DNA from: Candidatus Parendomicrobium reticulitermitis
GTDB lineage: Bacteria; Elusimicrobiota; Endomicrobiia; Endomicrobiales; Endomicrobiaceae
Direction of reading: 5' to 3'
Assembly (NCBI GenBank): GCA_031287095.1
Contig: JAITTG010000054.1
Coordinates: 1 to 45,856, forward strand
Length of the DNA stretch: 45,856 bases
Every line of letters starts with the position of its first letter. The stretch's first letter is position 1. The notes below the pieces were generated by a model. That model worked only from the letters and a program-made list of their open reading frames with translations. It made no database searches and was not told where the DNA came from. The position numbers and the translations under genes are program-made. Below are positions 33,619 through 38,052 of the stretch, piece after piece.

Positions 33619-33849
33619 ATGCAAGTAACTTTGACCGAATTAAAAACAAATACTGGTAAATATGTTGCTTTGGCTGATAGTGAAGACATTTTTATTACAA
33701 AAAATGGCAAGAAAATCGCCAAAATCACAAGCGCAAAAATGGATAAAATAACGTCTGCCAAAGCGCTTTTTGGTATTATTCCTAATGATATTGATTTAGA
33801 CTCATCTAGAATGGAGCGTTTAAATGAGCATAGTTCTATTAGATACTAA
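33619..33849 (+). CDS. Phd/YefM-family antitoxin
   Basis: The 76-residue protein begins MQVTLTELKTNTGKYVALADSEDIFITKNGKKIAKI, the typical Phd/YefM fold that binds DNA as a dimer, followed by a short C-terminal toxin-binding segment (KALFGIIPNDIDLDSSRMERL). The ATG follows AAGGAG at about 7 bases. It overlaps the PIN toxin gene by 26 bases, so expression is coupled. Confidence 0.88.
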   Translation: MQVTLTELKTNTGKYVALADSEDIFITKNGKKIAKITSAKMDKITSAKALFGIIPNDIDLDSSRMERLNEHSSIRY

Positions 33850-34261
33850 TATTCTTCTCGATGCTATTGCCAATCGCCCGCCTTTTTGCGTAAGCGCTCA
33901 AAAAATTTTTATACAAGCGGCGCAAGAGACAATAGATGCTCATATTACGGCAAATAGTCTTACAGATATTTATTATATAGCGAGAAAAGTTTTGTCGTCT
34001 GCGGCGGCGCATAGCGCTATTGAAGATATTTTGAATGTTTTTTCTATTGTCAGTATAGATGAAGATGATTGTAAAGAAGCAATTGACAGCGGTATTGATG
34101 ATTTTGAAGATGCTCTTATAATGGTTTGCGCCGAGAAAATAAAAGCAGACTATATTATAAGCAGAGACAAATCTTTTCAAAGCAGTACAAATACAATAAA
34201 AATCCTTTCAGCAGACGATTTTATCGCGCAGAACATATCCTACTTTCTCAATGAAAAATAA
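33824..34261 (+). CDS. PIN-domain toxin (VapC-like)
   Basis: The 145-residue PIN protein shows Asp7 in VLLDTNILLDA, a TANSLTDIYYIARK block, Asp96 in DDFEDALIMVCAEK and Asp115 in ISRDKSF. It belongs to the PIN group that pairs with Phd-type antitoxins. A GAGCG ribosome-site-like stretch inside the antitoxin gene precedes the ATG. Confidence 0.88.
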   Translation: MSIVLLDTNILLDAIANRPPFCVSAQKIFIQAAQETIDAHITANSLTDIYYIARKVLSSAAAHSAIEDILNVFSIVSIDEDDCKEAIDSGIDDFEDALIMVCAEKIKADYIISRDKSFQSSTNTIKILSADDFIAQNISYFLNEK

Positions 34262-34401: not shown

Positions 34402-35907
34402 TTAAGCCATCTGCGCACATTGCGGTTTTTGCCCTTTTACCAATTTTATACCCTTGTTTAAGCCTTCAACAGGGCATTTATTTTGGCAGATGCCGCAGCC
34501 TATACATAAGTCTCGGCTGACTTCGGGAGCGTCAACCGTATTGTCATTGACTGTTTGTTTGACAAATTTTATTGCTTTGCTTGGGATAGGACACATCTCT
34601 TCGCATACTAAACAAGTCACGCCCGTAGCCCAAGGTATGCAAATGTCTTTTTGAATTATCGCTTGCCCCATTTTAAATTGTTGTTTCTCTTCTATGGATA
34701 AAGGTTTAATTGCCTCTGTGGGGCACGCTTGCCCGCAGGCATTGCAATTGTATTCGCAATAACCTATTTTGGCATCCATTTTTGGAGTCCAAATTCCGTC
34801 AAATCCGCTTTCAATTCCCGACGGCTGCAGCCCGTTTGTTATACAGATTTTCATACAATTTCCGCAACGGACGCAGGCTTGTTTAAATTGCGGTTCAGGC
34901 AAGGCTCCGGGCGGACGGATGATATTATTTTTTGTATTTTCTAATTGTCCAAAAATGTTTTTCTTTCCAATCATCACAATGGCTGACGCTATGCCCGCCC
35001 CCCAATATAAAAATTGTTTTCTTGTAATTCCTTTTTTCTCATCAGTTTCTTTGTTTGAAATCGGCATTGTAGGCACAGGCCTTTTGCATTTGAGAGGAAC
35101 GCAATTCATACACATTATGCACTCGCTCTTTATGATAGTTGCGTCTTGTCTTATAGCGTTTGTAGGGCAATTGTTTTTACATTTGCCGCAAGCGTTCATA
35201 CAGGCTCTTGATTTGACGCCGAAAGGCGCTTTGACCGACAAAATTCCAAGCGATGCTCCCAATGGGCAAATATATCTGCACCAAAACCGTTTCTTAAACA
35301 AAACAAAAATTATAGGAACGACGAACAAAACGAGAAATATAGTTGAATGATTAAATGATATTAGCCTTGCGTCAAAAATAAAATTTTGAGTGAAAGAATA
35401 TAAATTTGAGCCTATGTTAAAATTCATTATCAAATACTCAAACACAATATCATTTGCAAAATTTAAAGCGGGGAAAAGTTTCATATATAAGAATCTTGAA
35501 AATATTGTGATAGGTTCGGCATACCATACAAATTGAAAACCCAAAACCGCCGCTATAAAAAAGAGCGTTAGCAAAATATATTTTGAAAACAGCGCTTTTG
35601 AAGGCTCTTTTTCTGTCCATTTTCTAAAAGGCTTGAATATAAAAGCGGCAAAATCCATCACAGCTCCGAAAGGGCAAAGCCATCCGCAAAACGCTCTCCC
35701 AAAAAGCAAAGCGCCGATGATAAAAACCGCGCATAAAATCAGCCCTTTAAAAAGATGAACGGAAGACAAAGCCGCTAAAAACGACATAGACGGCGAAGCC
35801 AAAAAGAAATTCAAAGACGGCAATTTGGGCGGATAACTCAAAAGGAACATAGTTGCCGCAGTAAATAGGAAAACCAATATCTGAATTGAAATTCTTAATT
35901 TTTTCAT
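34402..35907 (-). CDS. NapH/NapG-like membrane polyferredoxin with an internal Tat-like motif
   Basis: The 501-residue protein joins a NapH-type membrane part and a ferredoxin-rich tail. The membrane part (about residues 5-225) has the CGWLCPFGA (74) and CRYICPLGA (210) motifs. Two [4Fe-4S] sets follow: CMNACGKCKNNCP and CIMCMNC. Next comes ITRKQFLYWGAGIASAIVMIG (about 294-314), a Tat-signal-like hydrophobic segment with Arg-Lys in place of Arg-Arg. The tail has CVRCGNCMKIC, CNACGQACP, CLVCEEMCP and CIGCGICQNKCP. It would take electrons from quinol or a partner and carry them across the membrane. It is the last gene after tatA, tatC and DUF362. The ATG at 35907 has only a weak AGAGGA before it. 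Confidence 0.85.
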   Translation of the reverse strand: MKKLRISIQILVFLFTAATMFLLSYPPKLPSLNFFLASPSMSFLAALSSVHLFKGLILCAVFIIGALLFGRAFCGWLCPFGAVMDFAAFIFKPFRKWTEKEPSKALFSKYILLTLFFIAAVLGFQFVWYAEPITIFSRFLYMKLFPALNFANDIVFEYLIMNFNIGSNLYSFTQNFIFDARLISFNHSTIFLVLFVVPIIFVLFKKRFWCRYICPLGASLGILSVKAPFGVKSRACMNACGKCKNNCPTNAIRQDATIIKSECIMCMNCVPLKCKRPVPTMPISNKETDEKKGITRKQFLYWGAGIASAIVMIGKKNIFGQLENTKNNIIRPPGALPEPQFKQACVRCGNCMKICITNGLQPSGIESGFDGIWTPKMDAKIGYCEYNCNACGQACPTEAIKPLSIEEKQQFKMGQAIIQKDICIPWATGVTCLVCEEMCPIPSKAIKFVKQTVNDNTVDAPEVSRDLCIGCGICQNKCPVEGLNKGIKLVKGQKPQCAQMA

Positions 35908-36107: not shown

Positions 36108-37109
36108 TTATTTTTCAATTTTCACTTTTGAATTTGGCGAGAATAGTTTTCCAAGTCCTTTTTGCGCGCTGATATTTATATAACCTATGGATTTAGGCTC
36201 TTTGTTAAAAAATGTTTTTGCGCTGTAACTATCCGCCAAAACTCCGTCGGCTGAGGCTACTACTGTATTTTTCTTAACAACATCAGCCAAATTACCGCCG
36301 CGCGGACCATTTCTTGTGATGACTGCATTTGCGTCAATAATATAGAGGTCTGGTTTAAAAAACTCATTTAATTCATAAATGCTTTCGTCCAAATTCCAAT
36401 GGCATTGTCCTCTCCCGCCGCCCATGTAGCCTATGAGATTTTTTAATCCCATAGAAAGTTGAGCCTGCCCATGATGTTTTGCCACAGGAACGCTTATTAA
36501 CACATCGCAGTCAACGCCGTCTTTAATTAGCATAAAATCTTCTAATACTGCGTTTGGTCTATTAAATTTCGCGGGTAGAAATCTAAAATTATCAGTATAA
36601 AAAACTTCAGCGCCTGCGGCTTTTGCGGCGGCGGCTATTCCGGAATTTTCATAACTAGACTTTCTATCATTTAGCGTATTATCAAAAACTCTCACCGCTT
36701 TTGCCCCGCTTTCAAAACACATTTTCACTACTTCGCTTACCACTGCGGGATTTGTATTTGCCGCGTATTGAGGCGTTAAATTCCAAGACATATTCGGCTT
36801 TAATGCCACAATATCTCCTTTCTTTACAAATTTGCCCATACCCCCCAGCAATTCAACCGCTCTTCTTGTGATTGCGGACGGATTTGAGCCTGTCGCTGCC
36901 GTCAAATCAAAATCCGTTGTAATACCAGCCCTTTTATTTCTTGGATACAAGGCTTTTGTGTTTTGGGCAAAAACATTTTTTGCAGATTTTGACGATAATC
37001 CCAAAACGGCTGCCGCCGCGGCGGCTGTTTTTAAGAAAGTTTTCCTTGTCATATCCTTGCCCAAGATTTCTTTTGTTTTTTCTGCGATTTTTTCAACATT
37101 GTTCTTCAT
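36108..37109 (-). CDS. DUF362 family ferredoxin-associated protein with Tat-like signal
   Basis: The 333-residue protein has a DUF362 core: ALKPNMSWN, KAVRVFDNTLN, DVLISVPVAKHHGQAQLSMGLKNLIGYMG and NAVITRNGPRGGNLADV. Its N-terminus has a 20-residue charged lead, then MTRKTFLKTAAAAAAVLGLSS, a Tat-type signal with Arg22-Lys23 in place of the twin arginines. It is therefore probably exported folded. The gene overlaps tatC by 17 bases, follows AAAGGAG, and lies upstream of the polyferredoxin gene. DUF362 proteins often occur with ferredoxin-like partners; the reaction is unknown. Confidence 0.85.
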   Translation of the reverse strand: MKNNVEKIAEKTKEILGKDMTRKTFLKTAAAAAAVLGLSSKSAKNVFAQNTKALYPRNKRAGITTDFDLTAATGSNPSAITRRAVELLGGMGKFVKKGDIVALKPNMSWNLTPQYAANTNPAVVSEVVKMCFESGAKAVRVFDNTLNDRKSSYENSGIAAAAKAAGAEVFYTDNFRFLPAKFNRPNAVLEDFMLIKDGVDCDVLISVPVAKHHGQAQLSMGLKNLIGYMGGGRGQCHWNLDESIYELNEFFKPDLYIIDANAVITRNGPRGGNLADVVKKNTVVASADGVLADSYSAKTFFNKEPKSIGYINISAQKGLGKLFSPNSKVKIEK

Positions 37110-37836
37110 AGGCTTTTTCTCCTTTAAACATATTTTTTTTGTGGACAGTTTTAGAAAATATAACTCCGACTTCGTATAAAATTATCATAGGGACTACAAA
37201 AAGCGCCAAACTAAAAACATCTGTGGTAGGCGTAATCACTGCCGCGGCTATTATCAAAGCAAAATACGCTTCTTTTCTTTTTGAAATCAACATTTTTGGC
37301 GTAATCAACCCGATTTTTGTAAGTATAAAAGCCGCAAGCGGTATTTGAAAAATTCCCGCCCCGCATAGTAAAAGAGCCATTGTAAAAGATATATAAGACG
37401 ACAAAGTTATTTGAATTGCCGAATCCGTAAGCCCCTTAGACAAAAATGTCAAAAAAGCAATCGCTTTTGATAAAACCGTCCAATACACAAAAGCCCCGCC
37501 GCATACAAAAAGTAAAAATGCTATTGCCGCCCATTTCAATATACTTATATCTTTTGCGCCTACCGCGGGTTTTATAAAACTAAAAATTTCCCAAAAAATT
37601 AAAGGGCTTGCAAAGATAAGCCCTGAAAACAAAGCGGTTTTAAGATAAATTGTTATAGATTCGGCGGGTTTTAAAATCAAAAAGTTTTCTATCAAACCTT
37701 TTGATGGGAGTTTTAATATATATAGTATTTCGTCAGAAAAGTAAAAAGCCAAGATTGCGGACATTAAAACAAAAATTATGCAACGGATAAGCCGCGTTCT
37801 AAACTCTTCAAGATGCTGGCTGACAGTCATTTTCAT
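37093..37836 (-). CDS. tatC: Sec-independent protein translocase TatC
   Basis: The 247-residue protein has six hydrophobic segments and the TatC start MTVSQHLEEFRTRLIRC (consensus HLxELRxRL), which with the first loop binds the twin-arginine motif. FASPLIFWEIFSFIKPAV and AAVITPTTDVFSLALFVVPMIILYE are typical. I use the ATG at 37836; a TTG one codon earlier is possible, since GGAAG lies at the end of tatA. It follows tatA with a short gap and its end overlaps the DUF362 gene. Confidence 0.93.
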   Translation of the reverse strand: MKMTVSQHLEEFRTRLIRCIIFVLMSAILAFYFSDEILYILKLPSKGLIENFLILKPAESITIYLKTALFSGLIFASPLIFWEIFSFIKPAVGAKDISILKWAAIAFLLFVCGGAFVYWTVLSKAIAFLTFLSKGLTDSAIQITLSSYISFTMALLLCGAGIFQIPLAAFILTKIGLITPKMLISKRKEAYFALIIAAAVITPTTDVFSLALFVVPMIILYEVGVIFSKTVHKKNMFKGEKAYEEQC

Positions 37837-37842
37837 CAAAAA

Positions 37843-38052
37843 TTAATCTTCCTTATCTTTTTTCAAAGGAATATCCGAATTTTCAATCTCTTTTGGTTTA
37901 TCGTCATAGTCAGACTTATCGCCCATCCCTTTTTTAAACTCATTTATGGATTTGCCAAGCGACTTAGCAATTCCCGGCAATCTCTTAGCGCCAAAAAATA
38001 ACAAAGCCAAAAGCAAAATAACAATCAATTCCTGAAATCCCAAACCAAACAT
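37843..38052 (-). CDS. tatA: Sec-independent protein translocase TatA
   Basis: The 69-residue protein has the TatA form: FGLGFQELIVILLLALLFFGAKRLPGIAKSLGKSINEFKKG, then an acidic and basic tail. It forms the variable-size export pore with TatC. No tatB is present, as in minimal TatAC systems. The ATG at 38052 follows GGAGGG. A minus-strand TATAAT (38082-38087) is a candidate -10 for the whole tat operon. Confidence 0.93.
   Translation of the reverse strand: MFGLGFQELIVILLLALLFFGAKRLPGIAKSLGKSINEFKKGMGDKSDYDDKPKEIENSDIPLKKDKED

Follow-up and report, generated by a model that had tools for sequence, protein, structure and literature searches.

Loss of the TatC Glu103 contact alongside arginine-lysine signals in a putative dedicated Tat operon of the Elusimicrobiota

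The 45,856-nucleotide stretch of Candidatus Parendomicrobium reticulitermitis DNA analyzed here (contig JAITTG010000054.1, hereafter the window) encodes two putative clients of the twin-arginine translocase (Tat) in which consecutive arginines are absent, both motifs reading Arg-Lys, beside genes for a Tat translocase. This raises the question of whether the translocase itself has an altered signal specificity. The genes form one operon on the minus strand, comprising tatA (37843..38052), tatC (37093..37839), a gene for a DUF362 protein with an N-terminal Tat-like signal (36108..37109) and a gene for a polyferredoxin in which a NapH-like membrane part is fused to a NapG-like Fe-S part (34402..35907). 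The tatA gene precedes tatC, which lies directly upstream of the DUF362 gene and overlaps its start with its final codons. The tatA product (MFGLGFQEL..., with Glu8) matches PF02416 (2.9e-16), and the tatC product matches both PF00902 (1.2e-48; 166 bits, cut-off 25.1) and TIGR00945 (152 bits, cut-off 132.7), with an all-helical AF2 model (pLDDT 84), placing it in the TatC family. In the 2.16 Mb source genome (125 contigs, ~90% complete) these were the only TatC and the only TatA/B/E protein over cut-off, and the profile search returned no TatB.

The DUF362 protein (MKNNVEKIAEKTKEILGKDMTRKTFLKTAAAAAAVLGL) belongs to its family by PF04015 (2.6e-42). Its closest named relative comes from an Endomicrobium metagenome bin (91% identity), and others also carry the name of this termite-gut genus. 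The AF2 model of the protein matched LarA weakly in Foldseek (E 1e-6, TM 0.44, rmsd above 10), and DUF362 and DUF2088 are placed in the same Pfam clan according to the accessible text of PMC11770544. The polyferredoxin (KGITRKQFLYWGAGIASAIVMIGKK) scored 3.1e-27 against the NapG model NF007012 (residues 289-481) and 7.3e-21 against the NapH model TIGR02163, both under the curated cut-offs, and several 4Fe-4S clusters are predicted in its NapG-like part from the profile matches. By analogy with NapGH, its probable role is to relay electrons out of the membrane, first to a periplasmic Fe-S domain and from there to DUF362. On the downstream side of the operon, the opposite strand carries a toxin-antitoxin pair, a PIN-domain toxin with a Phd/YefM-type antitoxin (33619-34261).

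Both clients present the [ST]-R-x-x-F-L core and a following h-region. The Tat-like signal segment of DUF362 used in profile A3 spans 36972..37058 (minus strand) and contains the motif MTRKTFLK, and the internal Tat-like signal segment of the polyferredoxin (34948..35034, minus strand) contains ITRKQFLY, with Arg296-Lys297 encoded at 35017..35022. The original prediction, that both proteins carry TRK instead of TRR and adjoin their own TatC, is hence confirmed by the operon, with a small correction to its placement of the DUF362 motif: the span of 37045-37058 is slightly off, falling on the codons immediately upstream of those for Arg22-Lys23, which lie at 37041..37046. Its further claim that these are two independent clients is not borne out, because both motifs were inherited along with the operon. 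TIGR01409 detected the DUF362 signal over cut-off, and searches of the genome with two public models and an RK-signal profile, which recovers the two window clients by construction, found no further credible Tat signal, although with limited sensitivity. The survey for other, RR-bearing substrates that had been proposed as a possible refutation therefore returned none, but this is a limited statement, because TIGR01409 is weakly sensitive here and missed the RR clients of a second Tat operon in 6/6 genomes with two TatCs. Codon patterns resembling RRxF[L/F] were uninformative (173, against 186 in the reversed control).

The receptor site for the motif has been described in the 2026 cryo-EM structure of E. 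coli TatBC-MdoD, in which, according to the accessible text, the first Arg contacts Glu15 through a water molecule and stacks under Phe94, and the second Arg forms a salt bridge with Glu103 and packs on Tyr100 (PMC13323110). Phe94 and Glu103 are reported as almost completely invariant in TatC, the latter in all three domains (PMC5539426), substitutions of E103 are listed among those damaging Tat (PMC3712464), and Gln215 is described as part of the polar cluster holding TatA/TatB (PMC5201420, PMC13323110). Alignment of these contacts, the check advised in the original prediction, revealed that the window TatC keeps the equivalents of His12, Glu15 and Phe94, the contacts for the motif's first Arg and its Phe, and has lost those of Glu103 and Gln215. 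Glu15 corresponds to Glu11 (37804..37806, minus strand; counted from the ATG at 37836) and Gln215 to Leu210 (37207..37209, minus strand). The E. coli 97-105 region corresponds to residues 90-98 of the first cytoplasmic loop (PAVGAKDIS; 37543..37569, minus strand), where the AF2 model places a loop at residues 93-98. The position of Glu103 itself is occupied by Lys95 in the gapped alignment or by Asp96 when counted without gaps from the Pro, and never by Glu. From this comparison we conclude that the putative second-Arg pocket of this TatC has decayed or been remodeled, and an altered specificity of the translocase is likely.

A search of 119 related genomes located relatives of the DUF362 protein in 70, and surroundings were fetched for the 24 with longer matches. 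A tatC gene adjoined DUF362 in 20 operons, window included, with the order tatA-tatC-DUF362-polyferredoxin common to the relatives. In these 20 operons the second motif position was Lys in 19/20 DUF362 proteins and Ala in the other, and among the 16 readable polyferredoxins 12 had Lys there and 4 had Ala, giving 31 Lys, 5 Ala and no Arg among 36 readable signals. All 36 retain the first Arg as well as the motif Phe, and since these remain fixed at positions flanking one that is never Arg, the RK motifs are more than a chance occurrence. Three more distant DUF362 operons (G017, G002 and G027) present Glu103, an RR DUF362 and a KR polyferredoxin.

This conservation bears on whether the two proteins are Tat clients at all. 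Their signals might act as Sec or YidC membrane signals, with the linked TatAC serving something else; for Sec, Lys is equal to Arg, according to the accessible text of a review (PMC7317946). We regard this as highly unlikely: the linkage is conserved in the 20 Elusimicrobiota operons and also in the Omnitrophota, the Arg-x-x-Phe core is invariant, the NapG-like part is predicted to bind several 4Fe-4S clusters, a class of cargo needing folded export, and the searches of the source genome found no other credible Tat client. We hence infer Tat export for both proteins.

The loss of Glu103 follows the operon. In an alignment of 51 TatC rows from relatives, window included, the position was readable in 49 and held Glu in 29; the remaining 20 are exactly the DUF362-operon TatCs of the window's clade. 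A wider comparison of 86 systems, extending to the Omnitrophota, comprised 46 TatCs lacking Glu103 and 40 bearing it. The 46 retain His12, Phe94 (with a single Tyr), Pro97 and an acidic residue at position 15 (Glu, or Asp in three of them), and are changed at Leu99, Tyr100 and Glu103. Gln215 is replaced by Met or Leu in all but three of them (43/46) and is kept in 38/40 of the others; in the main Glu103-less clade this replacement is found while the window TatA retains Glu8. The statement on Glu103 holds when the alignment method is changed, with the caveat that a count without gaps, anchored on Pro97, puts Asp at the position in the window TatC and Glu in that of a single relative (G030), so that 20/20 Elusimicrobiota operon TatCs lack Glu103 by alignment column and 19/20 by ungapped count; the same count gives Glu in 40/40 comparison TatCs.

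Those two residues, and a Glu at the 102 position in several Endomicrobia loops, could suggest that the contact is kept by an acidic residue displaced from the Glu103 position (in the window, Asp96; in several relatives, the Glu of KEQ, one residue earlier), in which case recognition would be canonical in essence, Lys standing in for Arg. Such a shift seems improbable to us. No acidic residue occupies the position under either anchoring in 42 of the 46 Glu103-lacking loops, and four of the systems (G075, G076, G072 and G073) have Pro, Val, Ile or Leu there, all four with Ala in the polyferredoxin signal.

A contrast within single genomes is provided by six relatives (G013, G019, G025, G026, G029 and G030) that carry a second Tat operon, encoding an RR aldo/keto reductase with an Fe-S domain, a homologous RR polyferredoxin and a TatC with Glu103, with tatA present in at least some of the six. 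In 6/6 genomes RK clients adjoin the TatC without Glu103 and RR clients the TatC with Glu103. The first TatC combines Glu15 with the absence of Glu103, and the second has Glu103 with Ala15 in five genomes (L095 of G025, L096 of G030, L099 of G029, L105 of G013 and L111 of G026) and Asp15 in one (L102 of G019), making it a mirror image of the first at positions 15 and 103. A corresponding mirror rule, by which loss of Glu15 would accompany loss of the first Arg, was discarded: the clients of the Ala15 TatCs keep both arginines, and K-R polyferredoxins go with Glu15. The aldo/keto reductase, polyferredoxin and tatC operon would form a second periplasmic redox module; in two loci (L099:1976-3220 and L107:1676-2920) the gene for the Tat-signal aldo/keto reductase, which has a 4Fe-4S domain, lies in one operon together with tatC and the gene for a NapGH-like polyferredoxin.

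Beyond the phylum, 80 named DUF362 loci were compared. Pairs of DUF362 and polyferredoxin without a nearby tatC, seen in Nitrospirota, deltaproteobacteria, Zixibacteria, Aminicenantes and KSB1, carry RR for the most part, with KR as an alternative in the polyferredoxin. Omnitrophota operons with their own tatC encode TatCs without Glu103, and their clients have K, G, N, I or S at the second position, and also R. Two Spirochaetes present Asp103, with clients RK/RG and RR/RQ.

Across the 86 systems, at least one client without the second Arg was found beside 45 of the 46 TatCs lacking Glu103 and 8 of the 40 bearing it, a contrast for which Fisher p-values ignore kinship. The corresponding figures are 20/20 and 0/16 in the Elusimicrobiota and 23/24 and 8/16 in the Omnitrophota, and each of the eight exceptions has an RK or RN client. 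Counted by signal, the second position reads K in 59, R in 11, G in 9, A in 5 and N, I, S and Q in one each without Glu103, against R in 62, K in 8 and N in one with it. Uncharged residues at this position occur in 14/46 systems without Glu103 and 1/40 with it; this contrast, which was noticed post hoc, is understandable, Lys being still able to form a pair with Glu103. The 86 leave out 12 Glu103-bearing TatCs of relatives for which no adjoining DUF362 or polyferredoxin signal was read (L090, L092, L093, L094, L098, L100, L101, L103, L104, L108, L112 and L114), the fragments L115-L117, the weak matches in L118 and L119, the second TatCs of G132 and G139, three genomes in which no TatC was found (L158, L180 and L212), an orphan KK DUF362 in G015, G498 (signal missing) and those of the 80 DUF362 loci whose genomes' TatC lay outside the search, which are mostly RR.

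Predictions for 17 Omnitrophota genomes were fixed from the client motifs before their TatCs were inspected. Retention of Glu103, predicted from RR clients, was right in 5/5, and its loss, predicted from clients without the second Arg, was right in 5/12 and wrong in 7/12 (G168, G349, G412, G405, G508, G182 and G388), for 10/17 overall. The rule hence holds in a single direction: a TatC lacking Glu103 almost always comes with a client that lacks the second Arg, and RK clients also occur with Glu103. The seven failures rule out that a client without the second Arg always means a Glu103-less TatC. That loss of Glu103 forbids RR was likewise rejected, given a Val103 TatC with two RR clients (G123, L163), RR polyferredoxins in L160, L176, L177, L189, L294 and L303, and RR DUF362 proteins in L159, L291 and L300. 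The original prediction that RK clients point to an altered TatC consequently stands in part. It agrees with the window's own TatC, which lost Glu103 and kept the contacts to the first Arg and Phe, and with the RR clients of the Glu103-bearing second operon in six relatives; as a general pointer it fails in the 8/40 Glu103-bearing systems with an RK or RN client, in the blind test for loss (5/12) and in G123, with its RR/RR clients.

The TatC tree places three changes at Glu103 but is also compatible with one origin (AU p 0.09), and one to three loss events suffice. The two to three independent contrasts all lie in the expected direction or are neutral, and with so few no phylogeny-aware test can reach significance. 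These few events, together with the RK or RN clients of Glu103-bearing TatCs in 8/16 Omnitrophota and the ability of hydrophobic signals in E. coli to do without the twin Arg and to circumvent the TatC site, as stated in the accessible text of PMC5539426, lend some credence to neutral inheritance: Lys would have been fixed once in the clients' ancestor, because a strong signal tolerates it, with separate drift in the loop of TatC, implying no change in specificity. We consider this explanation unlikely, if worth keeping in mind. Arg is missing from the second position in 36/36 Elusimicrobiota signals even though AAR is one base from AGR, RR and Glu103 are both retained in the second system wherever it is co-resident (6/6 genomes), and uncharged residues cluster with the loss of Glu103.

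The reading that we favor, and hold to be reasonably probable, is that of a dedicated TatAC with two clients, whose TatC lacks the second-Arg pocket and reads the first Arg, the Phe and the hydrophobic segment, leaving the second position free. The operon would then be a self-contained TatAC translocase serving an exported DUF362 and a membrane polyferredoxin that probably feeds it electrons. With the second-Arg pocket lost, through Glu103 and the changes at Tyr100 and Leu99, and the contacts of Glu15, Phe94 and His12 kept, clients would be recognized by what those contacts and the hydrophobic segment provide, and a second position that is no longer read could become Lys, Ala, Gly, Asn, Ile or Ser. 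Recognition would be effectively single-arginine, which, in cells that also have a canonical Tat, may keep the two systems separate. The likely order of events would start with a change of the second Arg to Lys, still able to pair with Glu103, followed by the loss of Glu103 and then by the appearance of uncharged residues. One system (L169 in G125, TatC L237) has Glu103, Met215, an SRK polyferredoxin and an SRR DUF362, and its TatC is placed on the tree, at moderate support, beside the main Glu103-less clade; it is plausibly an intermediate.

A broader interpretation, which we put forward only tentatively, sees here a natural single-arginine Tat subclass in which the Glu103 and Gln215 (TatA/B polar cluster) sites are both remodeled. 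Genomes with two systems would hold complementary half-sites (Glu15 without Glu103 in the first TatC; Ala15 or Asp15 with Glu103 in the second) that may insulate two electron-transfer modules, DUF362 with its polyferredoxin (RK) and the aldo/keto reductase with its polyferredoxin (RR).

A naturally single-substituted Tat signal was reportedly described by Hinsley et al. in 2001, in TtrB, where the first Arg is replaced by Lys (KR), and relaxed-specificity Tat translocases are said to have been obtained by Kreutzenbeck in 2007. The TtrB signal resembles those described here in that one of two arginines is replaced; however, it reportedly concerns one protein, a canonical TatC and the first Arg, whereas here the second Arg is replaced in all known clients of a dedicated Glu103-less TatC. 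Compared with canonical TatBC or TatAC (E. coli TatC; A. aeolicus TatC, 4b4a), the window TatC shares the fold and family and keeps the equivalents of Glu15, His12, Phe94, Pro97 and Asp211, and the clients likewise have S/T-R-x-x-F-L, but Glu103 and, in the main clade, Gln215 are lost, the second client position is not Arg and no TatB was found. The laboratory mutants E103K/G/A and the relaxed-specificity translocases, as far as PMC5539426 and PMC3712464 describe them in their accessible text, share the loss of the Glu103 site and the partial bypass by strong signals. The E103 mutants are inactive or weak in E. coli, whereas the loss described here has persisted in both the Elusimicrobiota and the Omnitrophota, accompanied by clients that match it. 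Like the NapGH/MauM-type ferredoxins and the actinobacterial Sec/Tat Rieske proteins, according to the accessible text of PMC7317946, the polyferredoxin is polytopic with a late Tat-type helix that would carry an Fe-S domain across, but here the NapH-like and NapG-like parts are fused, the signal is an internal R-K one and the scores fall under curated cut-offs. In the literature covered, which lacks most subscription journals and all preprints, no work was found on the pairing of DUF362 and polyferredoxin, and nothing relevant appeared, by title and start of abstract, on Endomicrobium twin-arginine systems or on TatC in Elusimicrobia or Omnitrophota. No literature on mitochondrial TatC/Rieske was found, and a published TatC survey, in its accessible text, names E103 among key residues and gives no such exception.

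Loss of Glu103 inactivates or cripples Tat in E. coli, yet this lineage lives without it. A lineage lacking Glu103, with clients lacking the matching Arg, constitutes a natural experiment on the pairing that the 2026 structure revealed, provides material for asking what twin arginines are needed for and offers ready-made parts for an orthogonal export system. The orphan DUF362 of G015 (L055:297-1229) has the K-K motif RIKKSFLK, a degraded h-region and no adjoining TatC, the sole TatC found in that genome having Glu103; could its signal have decayed after the loss of a cognate TatC? In G004, listed as 99% complete, two NRRQFLK Tat signals (L132 and L144) were identified in a genome in which no TatC was found.
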